Assembly (NCBI GenBank): GCA_945787325.1
Contig: CALZHP010000019.1
Location: forward strand, 1 to 41,605
DNA: 41,605 bases
Source: an uncultured Desulfobulbaceae bacterium
GTDB lineage: Bacteria; Desulfobacterota; Desulfobulbia; Desulfobulbales; BM004
Direction of reading: 5' to 3'
How positions within the stretch are numbered: the first letter of the stretch is position 1; each line of letters begins with the position of its first letter. The notes under the pieces are model-generated. The model was not told the DNA's origin. It searched no databases and saw only the letters and a program-made list of their open reading frames with translations. Positions 2,953-41,420 of the stretch are shown here, in pieces. Made by a program: the position numbers and the translations under genes.

Positions 2953-4665
2953 ATGGGCGTAATACAGCAGGATATATATAATGAAATGATAAAAAGAGAT
3001 CGCCTGGACGAGATAGAAACATATCTTTTTGTCGGTTTTGCATCGCTTGCCGTTATACCTGTCCTTTATATTTTAAGGTTTCTTGACGATAACACATTGA
3101 CGAGCTGGCAATGGGTGTTCATTGGGCAGTCGCCTGGTATATTTTTTCTCCTGCTCATTCCTGTTATTTTTACCGCACTGTGCTGCTCCAGGCTGACGGT
3201 TCAGGAAAGATTTCTGCCGTGGATTCTTTTTGGATCTGGATTTCTGGTATCATCTTTTCTCTGGAGCATTCCGGAGGTTCTTTTGGACGCGTCAAGATAC
3301 TTTCTGGAAGCAAAATACCTGAAGGAATACGGGCCGGTTTTTTTCCTGAAACAATGGGGTGTGTACATTAATCCCTGGACAGACTTGCCGCTGATTCCCT
3401 TTCTTTATGGCTTACTTTTCAAGCTATTCGGTGAGGCCCGGATAGTAGCCCAGGTCTTTAATAGCGTCCTTTTTGCCACTGCAATGGTTCTTACCTACCA
3501 AGTTGGCAAAGTTCTCTGGGATAAAGAGACTGGTTTTTGGGCGGGCCTGCTGCTTTTGGGAGTACCCTATCTTCCCACCCAGGTTCCACTGCTGCTTGTA
3601 GATGTAGCCACCATGTTCTTTGTGCTGCTAGCAGTTGTTGTTTATATGAAGGTCTTACGGCATGGGGGCTTTTTATGGAGTGTTGCATCAGTAGTTTCCA
3701 TCGTCCTAGCCCTGTTGACTAAGTACTCAACATGGCCCATTCTGGCAGGTCTGCTGCCAATTATTACCCTTGTCCATATAGGTAAAATTCCGGGCCAGAT
3801 ATTAAAGCGTGCTGCTACTGTAGCAATAGGTGCAGGCTTGTTGGCTGTTGTTTTACTTTTTGCAAAATATGAGGTTTTCAGAGATCAGTTTATCATTCTG
3901 AGCACTTTTCAAAAGGAGGGATTAAAACGTTGGCAGGAAGGATATATATCAACCTTTTTTTTCCAGATCCATCCGTTTATAACTATAGCCGCTCTTTTAG
4001 GCACATTTAGAGCTATACAAAAGAAGGACCCCAGGTTTCTTGTGGCCGCCTGGTTCGCAGCCTTTGTGTTTATTCTTCATATAAAAAGAATGAGGTATAT
4101 TGTGCCTTTGTTGCCTCTTTTTGTGCTTATGGCCGCATATGGGCTGAATGTGATTAGGGACGTTCGTCACAGAAGATTTATAGGGTATTCTACAGTCTTT
4201 TCCGCCCTGCTTGTATTGTTTGGGGCTTATAAGCCATTTCTTATGCAAACCAGTATGATGAACCTTAAAGAAGCGGGTGCATATCTTGACTCCCTTCCTG
4301 AAGAATCTGTTAGTGTCCATTTGTTGCCTCAGCACGAAGCGTCAGGTAGTACAACAGCAGCCTTGCCGATTCTTGACATTTATACTGATAAAAAACTGTA
4401 CTCGTCAGTTCAAAAAACGGACCATCACACGATTAATGTGAACAAAAACACATCCCTACGTTTTACCTGGGAGCTTAGTCAGCCGTCTTTCTATTCACCT
4501 GCTGTCCCAAATGGGACAACCCGGGATATGTATATTGCCAGTCGGGATATCAGTTCAAAATATAACTCTGCATTTCAGTTGGAAAAACAAATATTAGAAA
4601 AAAAATTTCAGCGCCAGACGGGCGTCTTTCGTTACAAAACACTGGTAACGATTATGTCGCAATGA
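2953..4665 (+). CDS. GT39/ArnT-like integral membrane glycosyltransferase
   Basis: About 570 residues, with some ten or more hydrophobic segments over residues 20-430 and a shorter soluble C-terminal part, the layout of dolichyl/undecaprenyl-phosphate sugar transferases (PMT/ArnT, GT39/GT83). A luminal acidic patch near INPWTDLPLIPFLYG and the LLDVATMFF segment resemble the family's catalytic loop and following helices. The frame opens at a TTG at 2911, but the ATG at 2953 is the more likely start; neither has a strong RBS. It follows the tusA-like gene closely and probably shares its sigma-54 promoter, an odd pairing. The sugar and acceptor are unknown. A perfect TGTCCC palindrome (4503-4518) lies inside the coding sequence near the 3' end. 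Confidence 0.82.
   Translation: MGVIQQDIYNEMIKRDRLDEIETYLFVGFASLAVIPVLYILRFLDDNTLTSWQWVFIGQSPGIFFLLLIPVIFTALCCSRLTVQERFLPWILFGSGFLVSSFLWSIPEVLLDASRYFLEAKYLKEYGPVFFLKQWGVYINPWTDLPLIPFLYGLLFKLFGEARIVAQVFNSVLFATAMVLTYQVGKVLWDKETGFWAGLLLLGVPYLPTQVPLLLVDVATMFFVLLAVVVYMKVLRHGGFLWSVASVVSIVLALLTKYSTWPILAGLLPIITLVHIGKIPGQILKRAATVAIGAGLLAVVLLFAKYEVFRDQFIILSTFQKEGLKRWQEGYISTFFFQIHPFITIAALLGTFRAIQKKDPRFLVAAWFAAFVFILHIKRMRYIVPLLPLFVLMAAYGLNVIRDVRHRRFIGYSTVFSALLVLFGAYKPFLMQTSMMNLKEAGAYLDSLPEESVSVHLLPQHEASGSTTAALPILDIYTDKKLYSSVQKTDHHTINVNKNTSLRFTWELSQPSFYSPAVPNGTTRDMYIASRDISSKYNSAFQLEKQILEKKFQRQTGVFRYKTLVTIMSQ
4503..4518. promoter_or_regulatory. Intragenic TGTCCC-N4-GGGACA palindrome
   Basis: TGTCCCAAATGGGACA is a perfect 16-base palindrome inside the glycosyltransferase gene, matching the half-sites at 2529 and 4992. 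It may be a distal activator site for the sigma-54 promoter at 5172, about 650 bases downstream, or a coincidence of codon choice. Confidence 0.4.
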
Positions 4666-4834
4666 TGCAGGATTTTATTAAACAAACCGATAAAACTGTA
4701 AATATTAGTGGCAGGCTCTTACAAGTCTTAAATCCACCAGAAACAACTTTTCTTGATTCTGATTTTTGTGTGGCCAACTTATTGCTTGATATATTGTGAT
4801 TGACGCCAGGATTGTAGATTAAACGATTTTTATT

Positions 4835-4934
4835 TTACCTGGATACGTAACCCCCAGGTAATAGGAGGATGCATCTGATCGATCCTCCTTCCCTCCCACG
4901 GAGGCTCGAAAACCCCTCGGGCCTCCGTTTTTTT
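4835..4934 (+). ncRNA. Candidate structured RNA: three tandem hairpins with terminator
   Basis: Hairpin 1 is TTACCTGG/CCAGGTAA (4835-4842 with 4854-4861), hairpin 2 is AGGAGGAT/ATCCTCCT (4863-4870 with 4882-4889); both have perfect 8-bp stems and 11-base loops. A C/U-rich linker (4890-4898) leads to a terminator hairpin (4899-4905 with 4921-4927) and seven T. The first two stems are separated by one base. This looks like an independent small RNA or an elaborate 3' UTR of the glycosyltransferase transcript. The C/U-rich 3' arm and linker could pair with Shine-Dalgarno sequences. A weak promoter-like pair (TTGTGT, TATATT) lies at 4766-4795. I recognise no known RNA family. Confidence 0.5.
4899..4934 (+). 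terminator. Rho-independent terminator
   Basis: CGGAGGC (4899-4905) pairs with GCCTCCG (4921-4927) around a 15-base loop and is followed by seven T. It separates the upstream unit from the yeeE operon. Confidence 0.8.
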
Positions 4935-4991
4935 CTGAGCTAAACCCACTCAAACACAAGTTTGCCTTAGCGCAAATCAAGTTGTTGCAAC

Positions 4992-5007
4992 TGTCCCGTT
5001 TGGGACA
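4992..5007. promoter_or_regulatory. TGTCCC-N4-GGGACA activator-type palindrome
   Basis: TGTCCCGTTTGGGACA is a perfect 16-base palindrome of TGT-N10-ACA layout, about 165 bases upstream of the sigma-54 promoter at 5172, a normal enhancer distance for NtrC-type activators. A degenerate second copy starts 15 bases downstream. Confidence 0.65.
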
Positions 5008-5022
5008 ACAGGAAAGCCTATC

Positions 5023-5038
5023 TGTCTCAAACGGCACA
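5023..5038. promoter_or_regulatory. Second, degenerate TGT-N10-ACA site
   Basis: TGTCTCAAACGGCACA keeps TGT-N10-ACA and most of the flanking half-sites. Its centre lies 31 bases from that of the palindrome at 4992, about three helical turns, as expected for cooperative enhancer sites on one DNA face. Confidence 0.5.
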
Positions 5039-5170
5039 ATTTTGTATTCAATAATTTCGACTGTTTCAGGTTTCAGGTGTTGCGTTAGAGCGGTTTAATC
5101 GGTTGTAAGCCTTCCACTTCAGCGGCATATACAAAATAGATGGAGCACTACCAGTTCGTGATTAATACGC

Positions 5171-5187
5171 TTGGCATACACCTTGCA
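5171..5187 (+). promoter_or_regulatory. Sigma-54 promoter of the yeeE-tusA operon
   Basis: TTGGCATACACCTTGCA has exact GG-N10-GC spacing and both conserved halves (TTGGCA, TTGCA), about 90 bases before the GTG at 5277. Together with the two upstream palindromes it forms a complete sigma-54 control region. Confidence 0.82.
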
Positions 5188-5276
5188 AACTATACATGAC
5201 AGCTATGCAGGAACAGTGTGTAGCTCACAGTTTTGAAGTGTTAAAGATAAACAAGAGATAAAGTGGAGGTAGCCAG

Positions 5277-6716
5277 GTGGAGATAGCAATTCCTCAAAAA
5301 AATAGGATCTGGGTCTTGGTGATAGTCGGTTTTTTTGCCTTGATCAGTATCGGCACCTATGCCATACATGAATACTATATATATCTTTCTGCCTATCTCT
5401 GGTTTGGTTTCATTTACGGGATGTGCCTTCAGTATGGGCGATTCTGTTTTGCCTCGGCCTTCAGGGACCTTTTTGCGGTGGGGGTGCCGCGCATGGTAGT
5501 CGGTATCATGATTGCCACTTTGCTTTTTTCCATCACCTCTTCGCTCGTTGCATCAACAGGATGGAGCACTTTCCATGCGGCTCCCTGGAGCGTGCATGCC
5601 ATTATAGCCGGTTTGATTTTCGGCATCGGCATGGTCTTTGCCGGCGGCTGCGCTTCAGGCTCTTTGTACAAAGCCGGAGAGGGTAACGGGGTCTCCATGC
5701 TGGTTATTCTTTCAATCAGTGTTACTCAGTCATCTTTTGTAGATCTTGGTGGGTGGTTTAATAATTTAGTACCGAAATCATGGGCCGAGTCTGCATTAAC
5801 AAAAAGTATGCCCAGCTCAATCAAAGTATCTGACGGCTGGGTTGACCAGTATCTGGCCGGATATGTCTGGGACCAGCCGGTAATCACTTTTGCAAAACTT
5901 CTTGGCCTTGAGGATACAAGCCTGGTTGGCGCATTTGTAGGTAACACCTTTTTAGGTGTTTTCCTGCCTGCAATCTGTTTGTTGGCCATAGTATACACCC
6001 TCTGGTCCCGCCAGCGGTTTACTCTGGACTTTGAAGCAAGTGAAGGACACAAGCCCGGCCTGGCCGACCATGTTCGGGGATACTGGGAAATGATAGTTTC
6101 GTCCAAACGTACTGCAATTGCCGGGTTGTTTCTGGGAATAGCCTGCGGACTACAGATGTTTGTTATCGAAGGTCTGCGTATGAAGTTCGGGGTAAAAAAT
6201 GCAGGTACACTTCTGCAGCGCCTGGGGCATGATTTCGGAATTTCGGCCAAGGGCACAGTTTTTGATCCCGGCTACTGGTATGTAACGACCCAGGAAGCCC
6301 AGTGGGTTGGCTGGGTGGCCCAGAAATTGGGCTGGAACAACATGGATAATATTTATTTTGGCTGGGTGAACGGTATTCCCAACCCGGCTATTAACCCAGC
6401 CGACTGGATGTCTGTTGCCCTTATTGGCGGCGCTGCCGTTATGGCCCTGTCGAATGGTGAATTCAAGTGGAAGGCGCCGACCAAAGAGCTTGCTTTCTGG
6501 GCACTCTTAGGTGGTGCTTTTATGGGTATCGGTTCCAGGCTGGCGCTTGGCTGTAATGTTGGTGCCTTCTTTGTCAGAACTGCAAACGGAGATGTCTCCG
6601 GTTGGTCGTTCGGGTTGGGAATGGTTGGTGGCGCCTATGTGGGTGTCAAAATATTCAACTGGTATACGGAGCGGCAAATGGCCAAAGAAATGGCCAACTT
6701 AGATTTCGACCTGTAA
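5277..6716 (+). CDS. YeeE/YedE-family sulfur-compound transporter
   Basis: 479 residues, membrane throughout, with the two internally related halves of the Sulf_transp family (thiosulfate/sulfur-compound or selenium-related transport). Cysteines expected to handle the sulfur substrate are present: C57 in GRFCFASAF, C125 in FAGGCASGS and C426 in LALGCNVGAFF. It starts at GTG with RBS GGAGGT seven bases upstream. It heads a sigma-54-dependent operon, and a TusA-like partner begins 31 bases after its stop, the classic YeeE-YeeD arrangement in which imported sulfane sulfur passes to a TusA-type carrier. The substrate (thiosulfate, sulfane sulfur or polysulfide) cannot be read from sequence. Confidence 0.92.
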   Translation: MEIAIPQKNRIWVLVIVGFFALISIGTYAIHEYYIYLSAYLWFGFIYGMCLQYGRFCFASAFRDLFAVGVPRMVVGIMIATLLFSITSSLVASTGWSTFHAAPWSVHAIIAGLIFGIGMVFAGGCASGSLYKAGEGNGVSMLVILSISVTQSSFVDLGGWFNNLVPKSWAESALTKSMPSSIKVSDGWVDQYLAGYVWDQPVITFAKLLGLEDTSLVGAFVGNTFLGVFLPAICLLAIVYTLWSRQRFTLDFEASEGHKPGLADHVRGYWEMIVSSKRTAIAGLFLGIACGLQMFVIEGLRMKFGVKNAGTLLQRLGHDFGISAKGTVFDPGYWYVTTQEAQWVGWVAQKLGWNNMDNIYFGWVNGIPNPAINPADWMSVALIGGAAVMALSNGEFKWKAPTKELAFWALLGGAFMGIGSRLALGCNVGAFFVRTANGDVSGWSFGLGMVGGAYVGVKIFNWYTERQMAKEMANLDFDL

Positions 6717-6747
6717 GGGGTCTAGGAACAATAAAGGAGAAAACGTT

Positions 6748-6999
6748 ATGCCATTATCATTTTCGAAAGTTTCAGATGGACATTATCTGCTGGACGTTAC
6801 CGGTTATGTCTGTCCGCACCCCCAACTCTATACCAAAAAAACCCTGGAAAAGATGCACAGCGGTGATGAGCTGGAGCTTGTTTTTGATAACCCGTCCTCG
6901 GCGGAGTCAATATCTGCCATGTGCACAAGGGAAGGAAATCCCATTCTTGATAAACAAGCGCAGGAAGGTAAATTCATCTTCAAGATCAAAAAAGGTTAA
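6748..6999 (+). CDS. TusA/YeeD-family sulfur carrier protein
   Basis: 83 residues with the TusA signature YVCPHPQLYTKK; C22 is the persulfide-carrying residue. The CPHP variant differs from the CPRP and CPMP of the two other TusA-like proteins in the window, so the three are not recent duplicates. RBS AAAGGAG is present. It lies directly behind the YeeE/YedE transporter and probably takes sulfur from it on the cytoplasmic side. An 80-base spacer containing TGATCA twice (7040 and 7056), able to form a small hairpin, separates it from the next gene. Confidence 0.92.
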   Translation: MPLSFSKVSDGHYLLDVTGYVCPHPQLYTKKTLEKMHSGDELELVFDNPSSAESISAMCTREGNPILDKQAQEGKFIFKIKKG

Positions 7000-7079
7000 G
7001 GACCAAAGGGGTGTAAGCCTGGTTGGCCATGGTATTGGTTGATCACTGAAATAAATGATCATTTTGGAGGAGTTCAAGA

Positions 7080-7271
7080 ATGAAGAATAGCCTGTGGCTG
7101 GTGAAACTTATAGCTATTGCCTTTGTCGGATTTATGATGGGCTACGCCGTGCCGCCCTTTCTGGAAGTAGGGTTCGGTGACAACGTCGAACTGCTTGAAG
7201 AGGGTGAAGCACTGCCTGATGATATCATGAAACAGTATGAGCACTTATACCAGGATGACGAGGACGACTAG
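7080..7271 (+). CDS. Small single-pass membrane protein, YTD-type operon
   Basis: 63 residues: an N-terminal hydrophobic segment (about residues 6-25, ending MGYAVPPF), then a short acidic tail rich in E/D ending YQDDEDD. RBS GGAGGAG sits at good spacing before the ATG. I do not recognise a family. The following gene encodes a protein of the same plan (TM, GYA motif, acidic end with YxxLxQD), so the two look like diverged paralogues. The position directly after yeeE-tusA suggests an accessory subunit of the transporter or carrier; that is inference. Confidence 0.8.
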   Translation: MKNSLWLVKLIAIAFVGFMMGYAVPPFLEVGFGDNVELLEEGEALPDDIMKQYEHLYQDDEDD

Positions 7272-7279
7272 AGGGGATT

Positions 7280-7495
7280 GTGATGAAACAAATGCATTGG
7301 CTGATTCTGATATTAGTGGGATGGACTCTATCTTTTGCCGGAGGTTATGCGATTTCAGCTAACACCGGTTCTGAACCCGGTTATTTCACAGCGGTCGAGG
7401 CCGCGGGCTATGGTGGCGGCGCCGAAGAAAAAATTGAAGGCCTTACCGATGAAGTCCAAGATTATTACAAAAGTCTCCAGGATGTTGATGAATAG
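7280..7495 (+). CDS. Small single-pass membrane protein, paralogue of preceding gene
   Basis: 71 residues from GTG at 7280; the ATG three bases later is equally possible, and RBS GAGGGGA lies just upstream. A hydrophobic segment (residues 6-26, GGYAIS) is followed by a glycine-rich stretch (AAGYGGGAEE) and an acidic tail (DEVQDYYKSLQDVDE) resembling the DDIMKQYEHLYQDDED end of the previous protein. It begins 8 bases after that gene's stop, so they are co-translated. The function is unknown. The hydrophobic stretch may act as an uncleaved anchor or as a signal peptide. Confidence 0.78.
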   Translation: MMKQMHWLILILVGWTLSFAGGYAISANTGSEPGYFTAVEAAGYGGGAEEKIEGLTDEVQDYYKSLQDVDE

Positions 7496-7528
7496 AGAGT
7501 TCAGGGCTCGGTTAATTAGGAGTATTAC

Positions 7529-8008
7529 ATGAAAAAGATACTATTGGCGGTCGATGATACAAAAGGCTCCCTGCAAGTCGTAGAGATTCTCGTAAGCCTG
7601 ATGGGTGACTGCGTAAATGGAGGATGTATACCGGAAAATATAATTCTGCTGTATGTGGAACCGATCGAGGGGCGCTCCGTTATGGGTGAGATGCTTCTGA
7701 GTAATTCCGAGGTGGAGATATTAAAGGAATCACTCAAAGGGACATTGTATCAGAACAAACTGGACCAGAGGGCAGAGAAGGTCCTGGGGTACTTTAAAGA
7801 TATACTTCTAAAAAGAGGCTTTTTGGGAGTCATCCCAAAGAAGAGGTTGGGACACCCCGCCGAAGAAATATTAAAAACTGCCAAGGAAGAGGAAGTTGAA
7901 ATGATTGTAATGGGTTCCAGAGGCAAAAGGCTTCATAATTTGTGGATGGGTAGTATCAGTCGTGAGGTCGCTAATAATGCTGATATAGCAGTTCTAATTG
8001 CAAAATAA
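7529..8008 (+). CDS. Universal stress protein (UspA family)
   Basis: 159 residues with the Usp fold: an N-terminal strand ILLAVDDTKGS (Asp for nucleotide binding) and a C-terminal VEMIVMGSRGKR...WMGSISREV nucleotide-binding loop. The spacing between the second and third glycines is one residue shorter than the usual G-x2-G-x9-G(S/T), so ATP binding is likely but not certain. It is the last gene of the yeeE operon (33-base gap), with RBS TTAGGAG before the ATG. The role may be stress or energy-state control of the sulfur system; no direct evidence. Confidence 0.88.
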   Translation: MKKILLAVDDTKGSLQVVEILVSLMGDCVNGGCIPENIILLYVEPIEGRSVMGEMLLSNSEVEILKESLKGTLYQNKLDQRAEKVLGYFKDILLKRGFLGVIPKKRLGHPAEEILKTAKEEEVEMIVMGSRGKRLHNLWMGSISREVANNADIAVLIAK

Positions 8009-8117
8009 AGCGATAATTGGTTATTTCTCCGAATTTTTCGGGGGGTATAAATGATAAAAGATAAATGTCCATAATGGTGAAAGTGCCGCAAAGATGAAAA
8101 ACTAAGGAGGTTCAGTT

Positions 8118-9149
8118 ATGCAGAAAAATTTTATAGGTCTGATTATAGCAGGGGCCTTGTCACTTCTAATTTCAGGAGTTGCAGGCGCTGCCGATTGGGC
8201 GAATCCCGAATTGCTCATAACCCCGGAGGAGCTGAAGGTCAAGATTGAGAAAGAAGGCTGGGTAGCCGTGGATTCAAGAGATTTGAAAGACTATGCTAAA
8301 GGCCATATCCCCGGCGCCATCAGCTTGGGAAAACGTGTTAAAAAAGCGTTGCGGGACTCAACGTCAAGAGTGTTCAGGAATACATCAAAGTATGAAAAAC
8401 TTCTGGGCAAGGTAGGTATTGGCAATGACACCCACGTTGTTTTCTATCATGGTAATATAAAAACTCTCACTGATGCGTCCGTGGGCTTTTGGGTCATGGA
8501 GTACCTGGGCCATGACAAGGTACATTTCATGGACGGTGGTCTCGAGGCCTGGCGTAATTCCGGATTTCGTCTTGAAAAAGATCCCACAGTGCTTGAGCCA
8601 AAAACATTTAAGGCCAACGTAGTCCACAGCCGCTTAGCTTCAACGGACGAGGTTCTGGGTGTTGCTACCGGCAGGACTTCTGGTGTCCAGCTTGTGGATT
8701 CGAGATCCAAAAAAGAGCATGAAGGAAAAGATATGAGGGCCATCAGGGGAGGACATATTCCCAATACGACCCTGAATGTTTCCCATAAGGACACCATGCT
8801 CAAGGAGATGGACAAAAAAACCGACAAGATGGAAGCGACGGGATTCATGGACGTCAAAACTCTTATGGAGCATTTCTCCTCGTTGGACAAGAATAAAAGA
8901 ACTGTTGCCTACTGCCAGACGGGTACACGTTCAACCCTTACCTATCTTCAGTTCAGGCTGCTTGGATTTAATGATCCGGCTAACTGGGACGAATCCTGGC
9001 GTGTATGGGCTTCAGATCTTCACGCCTACAGGCCTGTCGAGGCTCCAAACGGAGAACAGTGGTATAACTTTGATGGTGTGAATAAGGCTATAAAGAAGCT
9101 GACAAAGAAGGTCAAAGAATTGGAAGAGGCTATGGAGGATGAAAGTTAA
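8118..9149 (+). CDS. Exported tandem-rhodanese thiosulfate sulfurtransferase
   Basis: 343 residues. An N-terminal signal peptide ends near VAGAADW, so the protein is probably periplasmic. There are two rhodanese domains: the first (about 45-155, VDSRDLKDYAKGHIPGA) lacks the active-site cysteine; the second (about 180-310) has the catalytic loop CQTGTRS with C266. This is the inactive-active tandem typical of thiosulfate/3-mercaptopyruvate sulfurtransferases. The C-terminus is a lysine/glutamate-rich helix. A strong RBS, AAGGAGG, precedes the ATG. Placed 109 bases after the yeeE operon, it could generate or move sulfane sulfur outside the membrane for the transporter. A terminator follows at 9199. 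Confidence 0.92.
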   Translation: MQKNFIGLIIAGALSLLISGVAGAADWANPELLITPEELKVKIEKEGWVAVDSRDLKDYAKGHIPGAISLGKRVKKALRDSTSRVFRNTSKYEKLLGKVGIGNDTHVVFYHGNIKTLTDASVGFWVMEYLGHDKVHFMDGGLEAWRNSGFRLEKDPTVLEPKTFKANVVHSRLASTDEVLGVATGRTSGVQLVDSRSKKEHEGKDMRAIRGGHIPNTTLNVSHKDTMLKEMDKKTDKMEATGFMDVKTLMEHFSSLDKNKRTVAYCQTGTRSTLTYLQFRLLGFNDPANWDESWRVWASDLHAYRPVEAPNGEQWYNFDGVNKAIKKLTKKVKELEEAMEDES

Positions 9150-38217: not shown

Positions 38218-39222
38218 ATGAAGAAAATAGCAATCAACGGATTAGGACGAATTGGTCGCATGATAGTACGCCATTGCATTGACAATCCCCCCAAAAATAT
38301 TGAGATTGCCGCTATAAACGACCTGACGCCCCTGGATGAACTGGCATATCTCGTGCGGTATGATTCGGTGCATGGCAGGGCGTCATTTGCCGTTGAAGCC
38401 GGGCCTGGTTGTCTTAGTGTGAATGGGAAGAACATTCCAGTTTATAATGAAAAAGATCCAGTTAAGCTCCCCTGGAAGGACGACGGAATTGAATTCGTGA
38501 TGGAATGTACCGGTTTTTTCAAGGAAAAAAAAGATGCCTCTAAACATATAAGTGCAGGTGCCTCAAAAGTCATTGTCAGCGCTCCTTCAAAAACCGCCGA
38601 TTTGACGATGGTTATGGGAGTTAATGAAAAGCTGTATGACTCCGAATCGCATGAAATTGTATCCAACGCCTCCTGTACAACCAATTCCCTTGCCCCGGTT
38701 GCCAAGCTTTTAAATGATACTTTTGGCATTGAATATCTTATGGCGACGACTGTGCACGCTTATACAGGCACCCAGGCACTGGTTGACAAAGCTGCACGTA
38801 AACGAAGAAGAGGCCGTGCCGCAGCTGTTTCTCTGGTTCCCTCATCTACAGGGGCTGCCAAAGCGACGGCTCTTGTAATTCCAGAACTGAAGGGCAAAAT
38901 GGACGCAGTCGCTGTGCGGACACCGGTACCGGATGGCGCTATTACAGACATCGTTGCCCACTTGGGAACTGACGTGACTGTAGAAAGTGTCAACAAAGTA
39001 TTACTGGAAGCTGCCAAAGGCAAACTAAAAGGCATACTGGATTACAACAATGATGAAATCGTATCAGCAGATATTATAGGTAATTCACATTCAGGCACAG
39101 TGGACGCGCCCTCTACAAGGGTTGTGAAGAAAAGGGTAGTGAAAGTGCTAATCTGGTACGATAACGAATATGGATATGCCAGGCGTATGGTTGATATGGC
39201 GGACTATATGGCTGGTTTTTAG
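38218..39222 (+). CDS. gap: Glyceraldehyde-3-phosphate dehydrogenase, type I
   Basis: 334 residues, full length. The Rossmann start is AINGLGRIGRM, the NAD adenine-ribose position is Asp in AINDLTPLDELAYL (favouring NAD over NADP), catalytic C153 sits in SNASCTTNSLAPV, and the catalytic His is in TTVHAYTGTQ. AVRTPVPDGAITD and YDNEYGYARRMVDM complete the family pattern. It interconverts glyceraldehyde-3-phosphate and 1,3-bisphosphoglycerate. RBS GGGAGGG lies well placed before the ATG. Confidence 0.96.
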   Translation: MKKIAINGLGRIGRMIVRHCIDNPPKNIEIAAINDLTPLDELAYLVRYDSVHGRASFAVEAGPGCLSVNGKNIPVYNEKDPVKLPWKDDGIEFVMECTGFFKEKKDASKHISAGASKVIVSAPSKTADLTMVMGVNEKLYDSESHEIVSNASCTTNSLAPVAKLLNDTFGIEYLMATTVHAYTGTQALVDKAARKRRRGRAAAVSLVPSSTGAAKATALVIPELKGKMDAVAVRTPVPDGAITDIVAHLGTDVTVESVNKVLLEAAKGKLKGILDYNNDEIVSADIIGNSHSGTVDAPSTRVVKKRVVKVLIWYDNEYGYARRMVDMADYMAGF

Positions 39223-39528
39223 CTTCAAAAAAAAGGAGGAGGATTGAATAATACGGGTAGTGTTATGTCATGCCCATAAAATTGTGTAAGCGTATCAGGT
39301 TGTTTCTTATTTTAAGAGTTATGAAACTTGACTTTGGTATGTATGATATTTACCAATTTTATAATGTAGAAGTATTCAAACTAAATCTTATTTTTGGAAC
39401 AACAATAATGGAAGAAAGCGTTCTAAAATTTATTTTCTATGCCCTCAGAAGGGACTACGTATCCTTTTGGGGGCGTTTGCGTTTTCAATATATGAAAGAT
39501 AATGAACTGTATATTATGGAGGATGCAA

Positions 39529-39942
39529 ATGACAAGTCATAAGATTGCAGAAATAGAAGGAATCGGTGCATCATATGCCAAAAAGCTGGGAAAAGCAGGG
39601 ATTCTAAGCGTCAATGGTTTACTTAAAGAGGGAGCAACAAAAAAAGGACGGAAAAATATCAGCCAGACAACAGGCATTGACGAGTCCCTCATCCTGAAGT
39701 GGGTTAACATGGCAGATCTTTTCCGGGTCAGAGGTGTTGGAAGTGAATATGCCGAACTGTTGGAAAAAGCGGGTGTCGATACCGTCAAGGAGCTTCGCAA
39801 CCGCAATGCAAAAAACCTAACAACTAAAATGGCGGAGGTTAATGCTTCCGGCCGTGCTCTGGTACGTGCACTACCAGGTGAAAAAAGGGTGTCATCCTGG
39901 ATAAATGAGGCAAGCAAGCTCGATCCCATGGTAACTTTTTAA
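39529..39942 (+). CDS. DUF4332 helix-hairpin-helix protein
   Basis: 137 residues from the ATG at 39529, preceded by GGAGG. Two helix-hairpin-helix-type repeats: IEGIGASYAKKLGKAGILSV and VRGVGSEYAELLEKAGVDTV, each followed by NLTTKMAEVN-like helices, which match DUF4332. It resembles non-specific DNA-binding HhH modules without a nuclease domain. Function unknown. A very strong terminator follows at 39959. Confidence 0.87.
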   Translation: MTSHKIAEIEGIGASYAKKLGKAGILSVNGLLKEGATKKGRKNISQTTGIDESLILKWVNMADLFRVRGVGSEYAELLEKAGVDTVKELRNRNAKNLTTKMAEVNASGRALVRALPGEKRVSSWINEASKLDPMVTF

Positions 39943-39958
39943 TATATTCTGTTTGCAT

Positions 39959-40014
39959 ACCGAACTGTTTTACACCGTGAGTTATTGAGTAAAACAGTTC
40001 GGTAATTTTTTTTG
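39959..40014 (+). terminator. Strong rho-independent terminator
   Basis: A perfect 15-bp stem, ACCGAACTGTTTTAC (39959-39973) with GTAAAACAGTTCGGT (39989-40003), a 15-base loop, followed by AATTTTTTTT. It isolates the DUF3179 selenoprotein gene from the DUF4332 gene. Confidence 0.88.
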
Positions 40015-40037
40015 CTCTTATGGGCAGAGGTTTTAAA

Positions 40038-40946
40038 ATGAAAAGGGCTATATATACTGCTCTTGTAATAGCAGCATTTTTTTCGTTTTCAGCCTTCAAT
40101 CTGGAAAATTCACTTGTACCACAAGATGAAATTCTCTCTGGTGGACCACCAAAAGACGGCATTCCGGCAATTCTGAAGCCTAATTTCATTAAAGCAAGCG
40201 AGGCAAATTTCCTGAAACCGGATGATCGGGTAATCGGTGTTCGGATAAATGGAGAGGCAAGGGCCTATCCCATAAAAATTCTTAACCTGCACGAGGCAGT
40301 AAACGATACCCTGAGTGGCCAGCCATTCGTGGTAACCTTCTGACCTCTTACTCAAACGGGAGCGGTCTTCTCCCGGAAAATCAAAGGAAAAGAACATACT
40401 TTCGGGATAAGTGGTCGTCTCTACAAGAGCAACGTACTTCTTTATGACCACCAGACAGAAAGCTTGTGGTCGCAATTATTGTCTAAAGCGATTTCAGGAC
40501 GGCAGGCAGGGATGAAGCTTACCAAGCTACCTTCTGTAAGGACATCTTGGAAGACATGGAAGAAGAGAAACCCGAAAACACTAGTTCTGTCAACCGACAC
40601 AGGGTATCAGCGCAATTATGACAGAGACCCCTATAAAGGTTATTACAGAGTAGGAACTATCTGGTTTCCTGTTGGCAAGGTGCGCAAGGACCTGTCTCCC
40701 AAAGAACAGGTGCTTGGCATTGAAATAGAAGGAGTAGCAAAGGCCTATCCCCTTACTCTGCTGCAAAAGAGCCCAGGGCTTGTCAAGGATACTGTTAACG
40801 GTAAGGAAATATCGATAGAGGTAACCGCTGAAGGAGAAATTGTTGCGGTTCGTGATGATGAAGGCAAAACCCTAACCCGATTGTTTTCATACTGGTTTGC
40901 GTGGCAGGCTTTCCACCCGCAAACAACTGTATTTACAAAAGAATAG
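40038..40946 (+). CDS. Exported DUF3179 protein with in-frame UGA: probable selenoprotein
   Basis: 302 residues if the TGA at 40341-40343 (codon 102) is read as selenocysteine. The start ATG at 40038 has RBS GAGG, and a signal peptide (residues 1-20, IYTALVIAAFFSFSAF) sends it across the membrane. Upstream of the TGA are the DUF3179 blocks VIGVRINGEARAYPI and LHEAVNDTLSGQPFVVTF; the same frame continues with PLTQTGAVF, HTFGISGRLYKSNVLLYD, TESLWSQ, LSTDTGYQRNYDRDPYKGY, and ends normally. DUF3179 proteins usually have Cys exactly at the TGA position (TYCPLTGT-like). No indel or other stop is needed. A SECIS-like hairpin follows (40357-40375). Biochemical role of the family is unknown. Alternative: a recent nonsense mutation. 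Confidence 0.8.
40357..40375 (+). promoter_or_regulatory. Bacterial SECIS-like hairpin
   Basis: CGGGAG (40357-40362) and CTCCCG (40370-40375) form a perfect 6-bp stem with loop CGGTCTT, starting 13 bases after the TGA. The loop contains GGTCT, as in the E. coli fdhF SECIS, whose stem-loop starts 11 bases after its UGA; SelB recognises the loop GU there. Position, size and loop all fit selenocysteine insertion. Confidence 0.75.
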
Positions 40947-41090: not shown

Positions 41091-41420
41091 ATGATAGGAA
41101 ACGCTATAGTAGAATTTTTTGGATACATTTGTCCGCTGGCATCATTCATGTTTCTTCCCGCCCTGTTCACCTTTTCATACCACCTTGATAAAAAACAGAA
41201 TTACGGTGAATCAGACGAGGACAAACTATACGAGATGTCCAAGTTTGAAAGATGCAGTGAATTTGATATCTTTTGCACTGCTGCCGAGAAGTGGCATATC
41301 CCGATAATGCGTGTTGAAGATGATTTTGGTTTCTATCTGGCCAATTGCACAATTCCCTTTTATGTGAGGGATTATATCCGGTCAAAGCCATTCTATAGCA
41401 CTAAACAAAACAAAAAGTAA
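41091..41420 (+). CDS. Hypothetical protein with N-terminal membrane segment
   Basis: 109 residues. One hydrophobic segment (about 4-32, including FFGYICPLASFMFLPALFTF) is followed by an acidic soluble part with four cysteines spread through it (KFERCSEFDIFC; the rest in CPLA and ANCTIP). Family not recognised. The RBS GGAGGG before ATG is good and codon use looks genuine. It is convergent with the zinc-ribbon gene at the window end. Confidence 0.7.
   Translation: MIGNAIVEFFGYICPLASFMFLPALFTFSYHLDKKQNYGESDEDKLYEMSKFERCSEFDIFCTAAEKWHIPIMRVEDDFGFYLANCTIPFYVRDYIRSKPFYSTKQNKK

Follow-up and report, generated by a model that had tools for sequence, protein, structure and literature searches.

A DUF3179 gene with an in-frame UGA, very probably decoded as selenocysteine, in an uncultured Desulfobulbaceae bacterium

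The 41,605-nucleotide stretch of DNA that was analyzed here as a whole (hereafter the window) comes from the draft genome of an uncultured Desulfobulbaceae bacterium (2.78 Mb, 90% complete, 144 contigs). Near its end, on the forward strand, lies a gene of the DUF3179 family (40038..40946), and a scan of its frame from the ATG at 40038 to the terminal TAG at 40944-40946 finds a single stop triplet in between, the TGA at 40341-40343. A first-pass annotation had described this one frame broken only by the TGA, the splitting of the locus into two ORFs by automated calling, and the presence of the family peptides LSGQPFVVTF, PLTQTGAVF and TESLWSQ; all of this is borne out. Translation table 11 yields two ORFs (40020-40343 and 40464-40946), the next stop after the TGA is indeed the TAG at 40944, and the three peptides are found in the translation. 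With the TGA translated as selenocysteine (Sec), the product of 302 residues, in which Sec is residue 102, matches the Pfam profile PF11376 across the UGA and over its full length (E 7.7e-90; 301.7 bits against a curated cut-off of 27 bits; residues 39-296, profile positions 1-292 of 292), a result that confirms the proposed membership in the DUF3179 family. This is the only DUF3179 match in the source genome. The unprocessed product has a predicted mass of 33.9 kDa, and Sec102 is its sole Cys or Sec. Pfam assigns no function to DUF3179, and the NCBIfam models gave no match to the window protein.

The hydrophobic N-terminal stretch of the protein (40038..40094, forward strand), part of which forms a helix in the structure model (residues 2-18), is probably a signal peptide; it has no lipobox, because it contains no Cys. 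Seven nucleotides before the ATG there is an AGAGG (40026..40030, forward strand), which we take to be a Shine-Dalgarno-like motif. Farther upstream on the same strand, folding predicts a terminator-like element (39958..40013) that consists of a hairpin with a 16-bp stem and a 15-nt loop (39958-40004; -22.9 kcal/mol, z -4.88, none of 200 shuffles equally stable) followed by ATTTTTTTT. Since this hairpin sits between the upstream gene for a DUF4332 protein (39502-39942) and the DUF3179 gene, the latter probably forms a transcription unit of its own and looks like a single-gene unit. A promoter scan returned sites no more numerous than in shuffled sequence, its sole terminator-like site being within the coding region, and an Rfam search around the gene gave nothing above the gathering score. 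The other neighbors are a GAPDH gene upstream (38218-39222) and a small downstream ORF with no Pfam match (41091-41420); the window's own neighbors offer no hint of a redox function and include no VTT or disulfide-reductase gene. Eighteen other UGA-joined frames in the window were considered as candidates for a second selenoprotein and were rejected, by eye, as antisense or end-of-gene noise.

The locus had first been presented as a probable new selenoprotein, of a family not known to be among those commonly listed for bacteria. The reading of the locus as a selenoprotein of the DUF3179 family, with Sec taking the place of a conserved Cys, is upheld by the evidence given below, but the novelty is not: the family is entered in the selenoprotein tables of two papers, in one as DUF3179, UxxC/T, MBW1804167.1 (PMC9312934) and in the other as PF11376, UxxC/T, MDJ0986319.1, with credit given to Zhang and Gladyshev 2007 (PMC13188914). 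A text search turned up the name DUF3179 in three papers, the third of which mentions it a single time, in a table (PMC9230427). The window gene adds a member to this known family; it has the same Pfam domain, its U-P-L-T motif fits the UxxT of the tables, and it differs in belonging to another genome, where table 11 splits it in two, no further difference having been found. The 2007 work reportedly dealt with the Delta 1 symbiont of Olavius algarvensis, and a record from the Delta 3 symbiont of the same host worm (L055) is one of the ten best matches to the window protein.

These matches were obtained by searching a genome collection with a nine-row alignment (A1). The best 80 of 581 confirmed relatives were read; having been chosen as the most similar to the window, they are not a random sample. 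At the column of the UGA, 64 of these best 80 of 581 have Cys, 16 have UGA and none has anything else, in agreement with the earlier expectation, drawn from family knowledge, that the residue is normally Cys. The top ten are all UGA forms (58-70% identity), and others rank lower, among them those of Geothermobacter hydrogeniphilus HR-1 (L079) and Bacterium HR10 (L123). The domain was detected in 24 of 257 genomes in a search of the class and in 45 of 395 in a sample of the phylum; the phylum loci that were read (n=29, from organisms partly shared with the best-80 set) comprise 15 Cys and 14 UGA forms. Cys DUF3179 proteins from Gamma- and Betaproteobacteria, Nitrospirota and other groups are 43-51% identical to the window protein over nearly the full length and have the same invariant residues, but they carry Cys, mostly in CPLC, where the window has Sec in UPLT. 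The CPLC motif occurs in 63 of the 64 Cys loci among the best 80 of 581 and in 4 of the 15 Cys loci of the phylum set, whereas the UGA loci read UPLT, UPLA or UPLS, the second Cys being T, A or S in all except L123 and L136, which have UPLC.

The AlphaFold2 model of the protein (80 rows) is confident, with a pLDDT of 94.6 and a pTM of 0.90. The protein contains two half-domains that are homologous to each other (hhalign probability 98.4%, 56 columns). The first (approximately residues 63-137; 40224..40448, forward strand) bears His85, Glu86, Asp90, Sec102 and Asp137, and the second (approximately residues 221-288; 40698..40901, forward strand) is a degenerate copy of it without Cys or Sec. All five positions, with Cys or Sec at 102, are among the invariant columns of an 80-row alignment made without L052 (second stop), L056 (partial match) and L089; when more distant forms are included, in a set of 14 rows, invariance is limited to four columns, read as Ala76, Cys/Sec102, Asp137 and Pro179. 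Searches for solved structures by sequence gave 3vus with the single protein (E 0.82) and 8ti9 with the profile (E 0.018), both patchy and neither credible. Of the readings that compete with ours, the one that fares best, though we still think it improbable, concerns this fold: the half-domain would be a degenerate Rieske-type [2Fe-2S] domain in which the C/U-P-L-C motif is the second ligand loop. The structure model does show a weak Foldseek likeness to such proteins (3c0d_C, probability 0.85, TM by target 0.57, and several others), but no PDB entry matched it at E<=0.001, and hhalign against 30 Rieske domains gave probabilities of 0.3% to at most 1.2%. Moreover, the second Cys is variable (UPLT, CPITGT, CPLAAS), so the full Rieske set of Cys and His ligands is missing, and homology to this fold was rejected on these grounds.

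Downstream of the UGA lies the putative bacterial SECIS element (40357..40375, forward strand), a hairpin with a 6-bp stem (CGGGAG/CTCCCG) and a 7-nt loop (CGGUCUU) that begins exactly 13 nt after the TGA, just as the first-pass annotation had noted. The published limits for such elements are a loop of 3-9 nt, a stem of 4-16 bp, a G in the first two loop positions, a UGA-to-loop spacing of 16-37 nt and an MFE of at most -7.5 (PMC13188914); checked by hand against these figures, the window hairpin lies within them (loop 7 nt, stem 6 bp, G as second loop base, spacing 19 nt, and -9.6 kcal/mol for the 40-nt stretch that contains it). The likeness to the E. coli fdhF SECIS in position and loop also holds, since in both a hairpin with GGUCU at its tip follows shortly after the UGA, while the stems differ in sequence and length; among the 18 UGA loci aligned, six have the GGUCU loop. 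In a simplified scan of both strands of the window, comparable hairpins were found after 26 of 1612 TGA triplets, and 19 of these matched or exceeded the window hairpin in stability; the hairpin alone is therefore no proof of recoding.

Stability against dinucleotide shuffles was unremarkable in the four stretches folded (z -0.06 to -0.80). As plain shuffles do not single out the hairpin, we turned to a test in which the peptide is kept fixed and the sequence is compared with synonymous recodings weighted by local codon use. By this measure the window hairpin stands out (z -3.39, p 0.003), and so do those of the UGA loci in general (p<=0.05 in 13 of 18, mean z -2.39; the exceptions are L048, L053, L056, L092 and L123), whereas the Cys loci show no signal as a group (4 of 63, mean z -0.16; L089 was omitted, its first 48 nt being identical to those of L085). 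Covariation points the same way: when the stem is extended to 7 bp, 92.1% of its cells across the 18 UGA loci are paired and there are eight double changes, a result reached by none of 500 shuffles, and the best version with a slid partner is paired in 54.0%. The seventh pair, present in 17 of the 18, is absent from the window hairpin (C23 against U29). Loop positions G25 and U26 do not vary among the 18 UGA loci, but these two bases also open a conserved Val codon. Taken with the published limits, the recoding test and the covariation bear out the SECIS-like character that had been proposed for the hairpin.

To follow the inheritance of the UGA, a quick LG+G4 tree was computed from 111 rows with the Sec columns removed; it excludes L089, duplicate rows, rows that lack the UGA column and rows with fewer than 200 aligned residues. 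The UGA is present in 28 of the 111 rows and is clustered: two changes of state suffice to explain it, compared with a mean of 25 when the labels are shuffled (0 of 500 shuffles as low), and the window falls within an all-UGA clade of 13 rows with an SH-aLRT of 99. This distribution indicates that the UGA is inherited. The isolated UGA rows L123 and L136 take places that the tree does not resolve. In two Cys forms, L141 and L147, the motif CPLTASAVV recalls the context of the Sec forms; both lie outside the UGA clades, the genome of L141 has SelA above cut-off, and a return from Sec to Cys is possible in their case. Two UGA forms, L052 and L135, contain a second in-frame stop (TAG in L135) and could be broken copies or, possibly, could carry a pyrrolysine codon.

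The same comparisons bear on the suspicion, natural for a draft assembly in 144 contigs and for a triplet one base away from TGC and TGT, that the TGA is a nonsense mutation in a broken gene or a misread Cys codon. In the 300 nt after the hairpin, nine UGA relatives diverge at 58-74% of third codon positions but at only 12-25% of second positions, with 64-78% amino-acid identity, a pattern much like that upstream of the UGA; the region 3' of the UGA is, by this pattern, translated. Such protein-like conservation past the triplet, its recurrence at the same column in clustered rows of the tree, the hairpin signal confined as a group to the UGA loci, and the UPLT, UPLA or UPLS context in place of CPLC all argue against a lesion or an error, which we regard as very unlikely.

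We consider it just as unlikely that the UGA serves as an ordinary stop between two polypeptides, or that its read-through is a regulatory switch. An ORF with a TTG start does exist at 40464-40946; in addition, termination at the UGA when selenium is low would be normal for any selenoprotein gene. Nevertheless, two separate polypeptides would leave 40344-40463 untranslated although it bears conserved blocks of the family, and the 64 Cys loci among the best 80 of 581 relatives have no stop in the aligned stretch.

The source genome has the complete machinery for Sec insertion that had been sought in it, all above cut-off: tRNA-Sec (contig C53, 75.3 bits; ARAGORN type SeC, anticodon tca), SelB (C37, 373.5 bits), SelA (C76, 614 bits) and SelD (C2, 333.5 bits). 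In 14 control genomes, tRNA-Sec was above cut-off in 5, selB in 2, selA in 1 and selD in 2. Given this machinery, the third reading of the triplet, a variant code in which the in-frame UGA means Trp or another residue, is the least likely of all, because TGA is the terminal codon of 6 out of 31 ORFs picked by eye in the window and the homologues that were read have Cys at the column and never Trp. The SelD gene itself has an in-frame TGA (1528-1530 of L019) in the context CGUAAK, so that SelD is probably a selenoprotein too. A second selB fragment (L012, on contig C113) shares its order of genes with the full-length selB (L010, on C37), both copies standing beside what is presumably an hflX-like gene; it probably stems from a contaminating relative in the assembly, whose reported contamination is 3.4%, or from a duplication.

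A survey of SelA covered 73 genome entries (31 UGA, 42 Cys), with 50 loci from the best-80 set and the others from the genome searches; it did not extend to L135 or the other Cys loci. SelA was above cut-off in 27 of the 31 UGA entries as opposed to just 12 of the 42 Cys entries; because three genomes occur twice (G281/L047, G358/L051 and G551/L079), the count of distinct UGA genomes is 24 of 28. Of the four UGA entries without SelA above cut-off, L052 and G547 have SelB and L102 has tRNA-Sec above cut-off. In genome G447, listed as 100% complete, none of SelA, SelB and tRNA-Sec is above cut-off; its locus, L136, is a UGA form with a fuller second half, and either the contig with this UGA may be foreign or the triplet may not encode Sec. 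The genome of G. hydrogeniphilus HR-1, by comparison, combines the UGA form with selA, selB and tRNA-Sec above cut-off.

On the strength of the hairpin, the inherited column and the machinery, we are highly confident that the window gene belongs to the already listed DUF3179 Sec family and that its UGA at 40341 is decoded as Sec by way of the hairpin. SelB and a Sec-tRNA with the anticodon UCA would insert the residue, steered by the structure at 40357-40375, and the product would probably then be exported by means of its N-terminal signal. The first of the two related half-domains would hold a single selenol, that of Sec102, together with the invariant His85-Glu86 pair and Asp137. From the invariance of its position we infer that Sec102 is the catalytic residue. 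As it has no Cys partner in the protein, an internal Se-S bond is not possible, and with no further Cys or Sec available, a redox cycle, if there is one, would need a thiol or reductant from outside the protein to resolve it. The suggestion made at the outset of a periplasmic selenol redox or sulfur-handling enzyme is plausible; within it, our favored best guess is a one-selenol periplasmic reductase or peroxidase with Sec102 in place of a catalytic Cys. A selenoprotein gene that ordinary ORF calling cuts in two can help to correct the genomes of its group, and the family offers a usable test set: relatives of both the UGA and the Cys kind, a SECIS that shows covariation, a structure modeled with confidence and, in HR-1, a named strain.

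The searches also uncovered a half-length form of about 211 residues that covers approximately positions 26-148 of PF11376, at seven loci in the class search and five in the phylum search (L038-L043, L046 and L192-L196). All 12 copies have TGA at the Cys column and no Cys copy was seen; in nine of the 12 the hairpin is significant against synonymous recodings (p<=0.05), and this SECIS-like structure is shifted by a few bases relative to that of the long form. The weakest hairpin of the 12 belongs to L043, an incomplete copy. When the phylum was searched with the half-length form, further partial matches appeared in G494 and G570 that do not cover the UGA column. The NCBIfam models gave no match to six half-length members, and no description of the form was found in the literature, which was searched under DUF3179 and selenoprotein terms rather than by the form itself. 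We put forward only tentatively, as an idea that may well fail, that one half-domain with an N-terminal region of its own constitutes a Sec-only branch, the smallest form of DUF3179, itself a fold with no recognized relative in the PDB; if true, such a branch would suggest chemistry for which a selenol is required. Two divergent DUF3179 loci, L036 and L037, have the UGA in TYUGMANLG, and a related Cys form, L035, has AYCVLSNLP.

The genomic surroundings of the relatives (699 flanking ORFs at 81 loci) yielded clusters that span nine loci at most: one is ABC-transporter-like by eye, and another consists of FAD disulfide oxidoreductases and VTT-domain proteins. Ten neighbor ORFs were run against Pfam. 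Within 300 nt and on the same strand as the DUF3179 gene, a VTT-domain membrane protein (PF09335) is encoded at 4 of the 81 loci (L060, L064, L069, L077) and an FAD pyridine nucleotide-disulfide oxidoreductase (PF07992, PF02852) at 2 of the 81 (L062, L075). One of them, L069, is a UGA form in which the oxidoreductase, the VTT protein and DUF3179 follow one another on a single strand (3057-6099); at L060, L062, L064, L075 and L077 such genes adjoin Cys forms. At L060 the VTT gene is directly downstream and a reductase lies 1.1 kb upstream, a sigma-70-family gene standing between the reductase and DUF3179; sigma factor genes of this type occur near DUF3179 at 6 of the 81 loci, up to 3.5 kb away. 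As a weak lead, drawn from few relatives, the VTT and reductase neighbors would fit a thiol or selenol redox role served by an outside reductase.

Elsewhere in the window, at 5277-9149, there is a sulfur-related cluster composed of a Sulf_transp gene, which we take to be of the YeeE/YedE type, a short frame (6748-6999), presumably TusA-like, a universal stress protein gene and a tandem rhodanese gene. YedE is named as possibly selenium-related in one of the papers that tabulate DUF3179 (PMC9312934).
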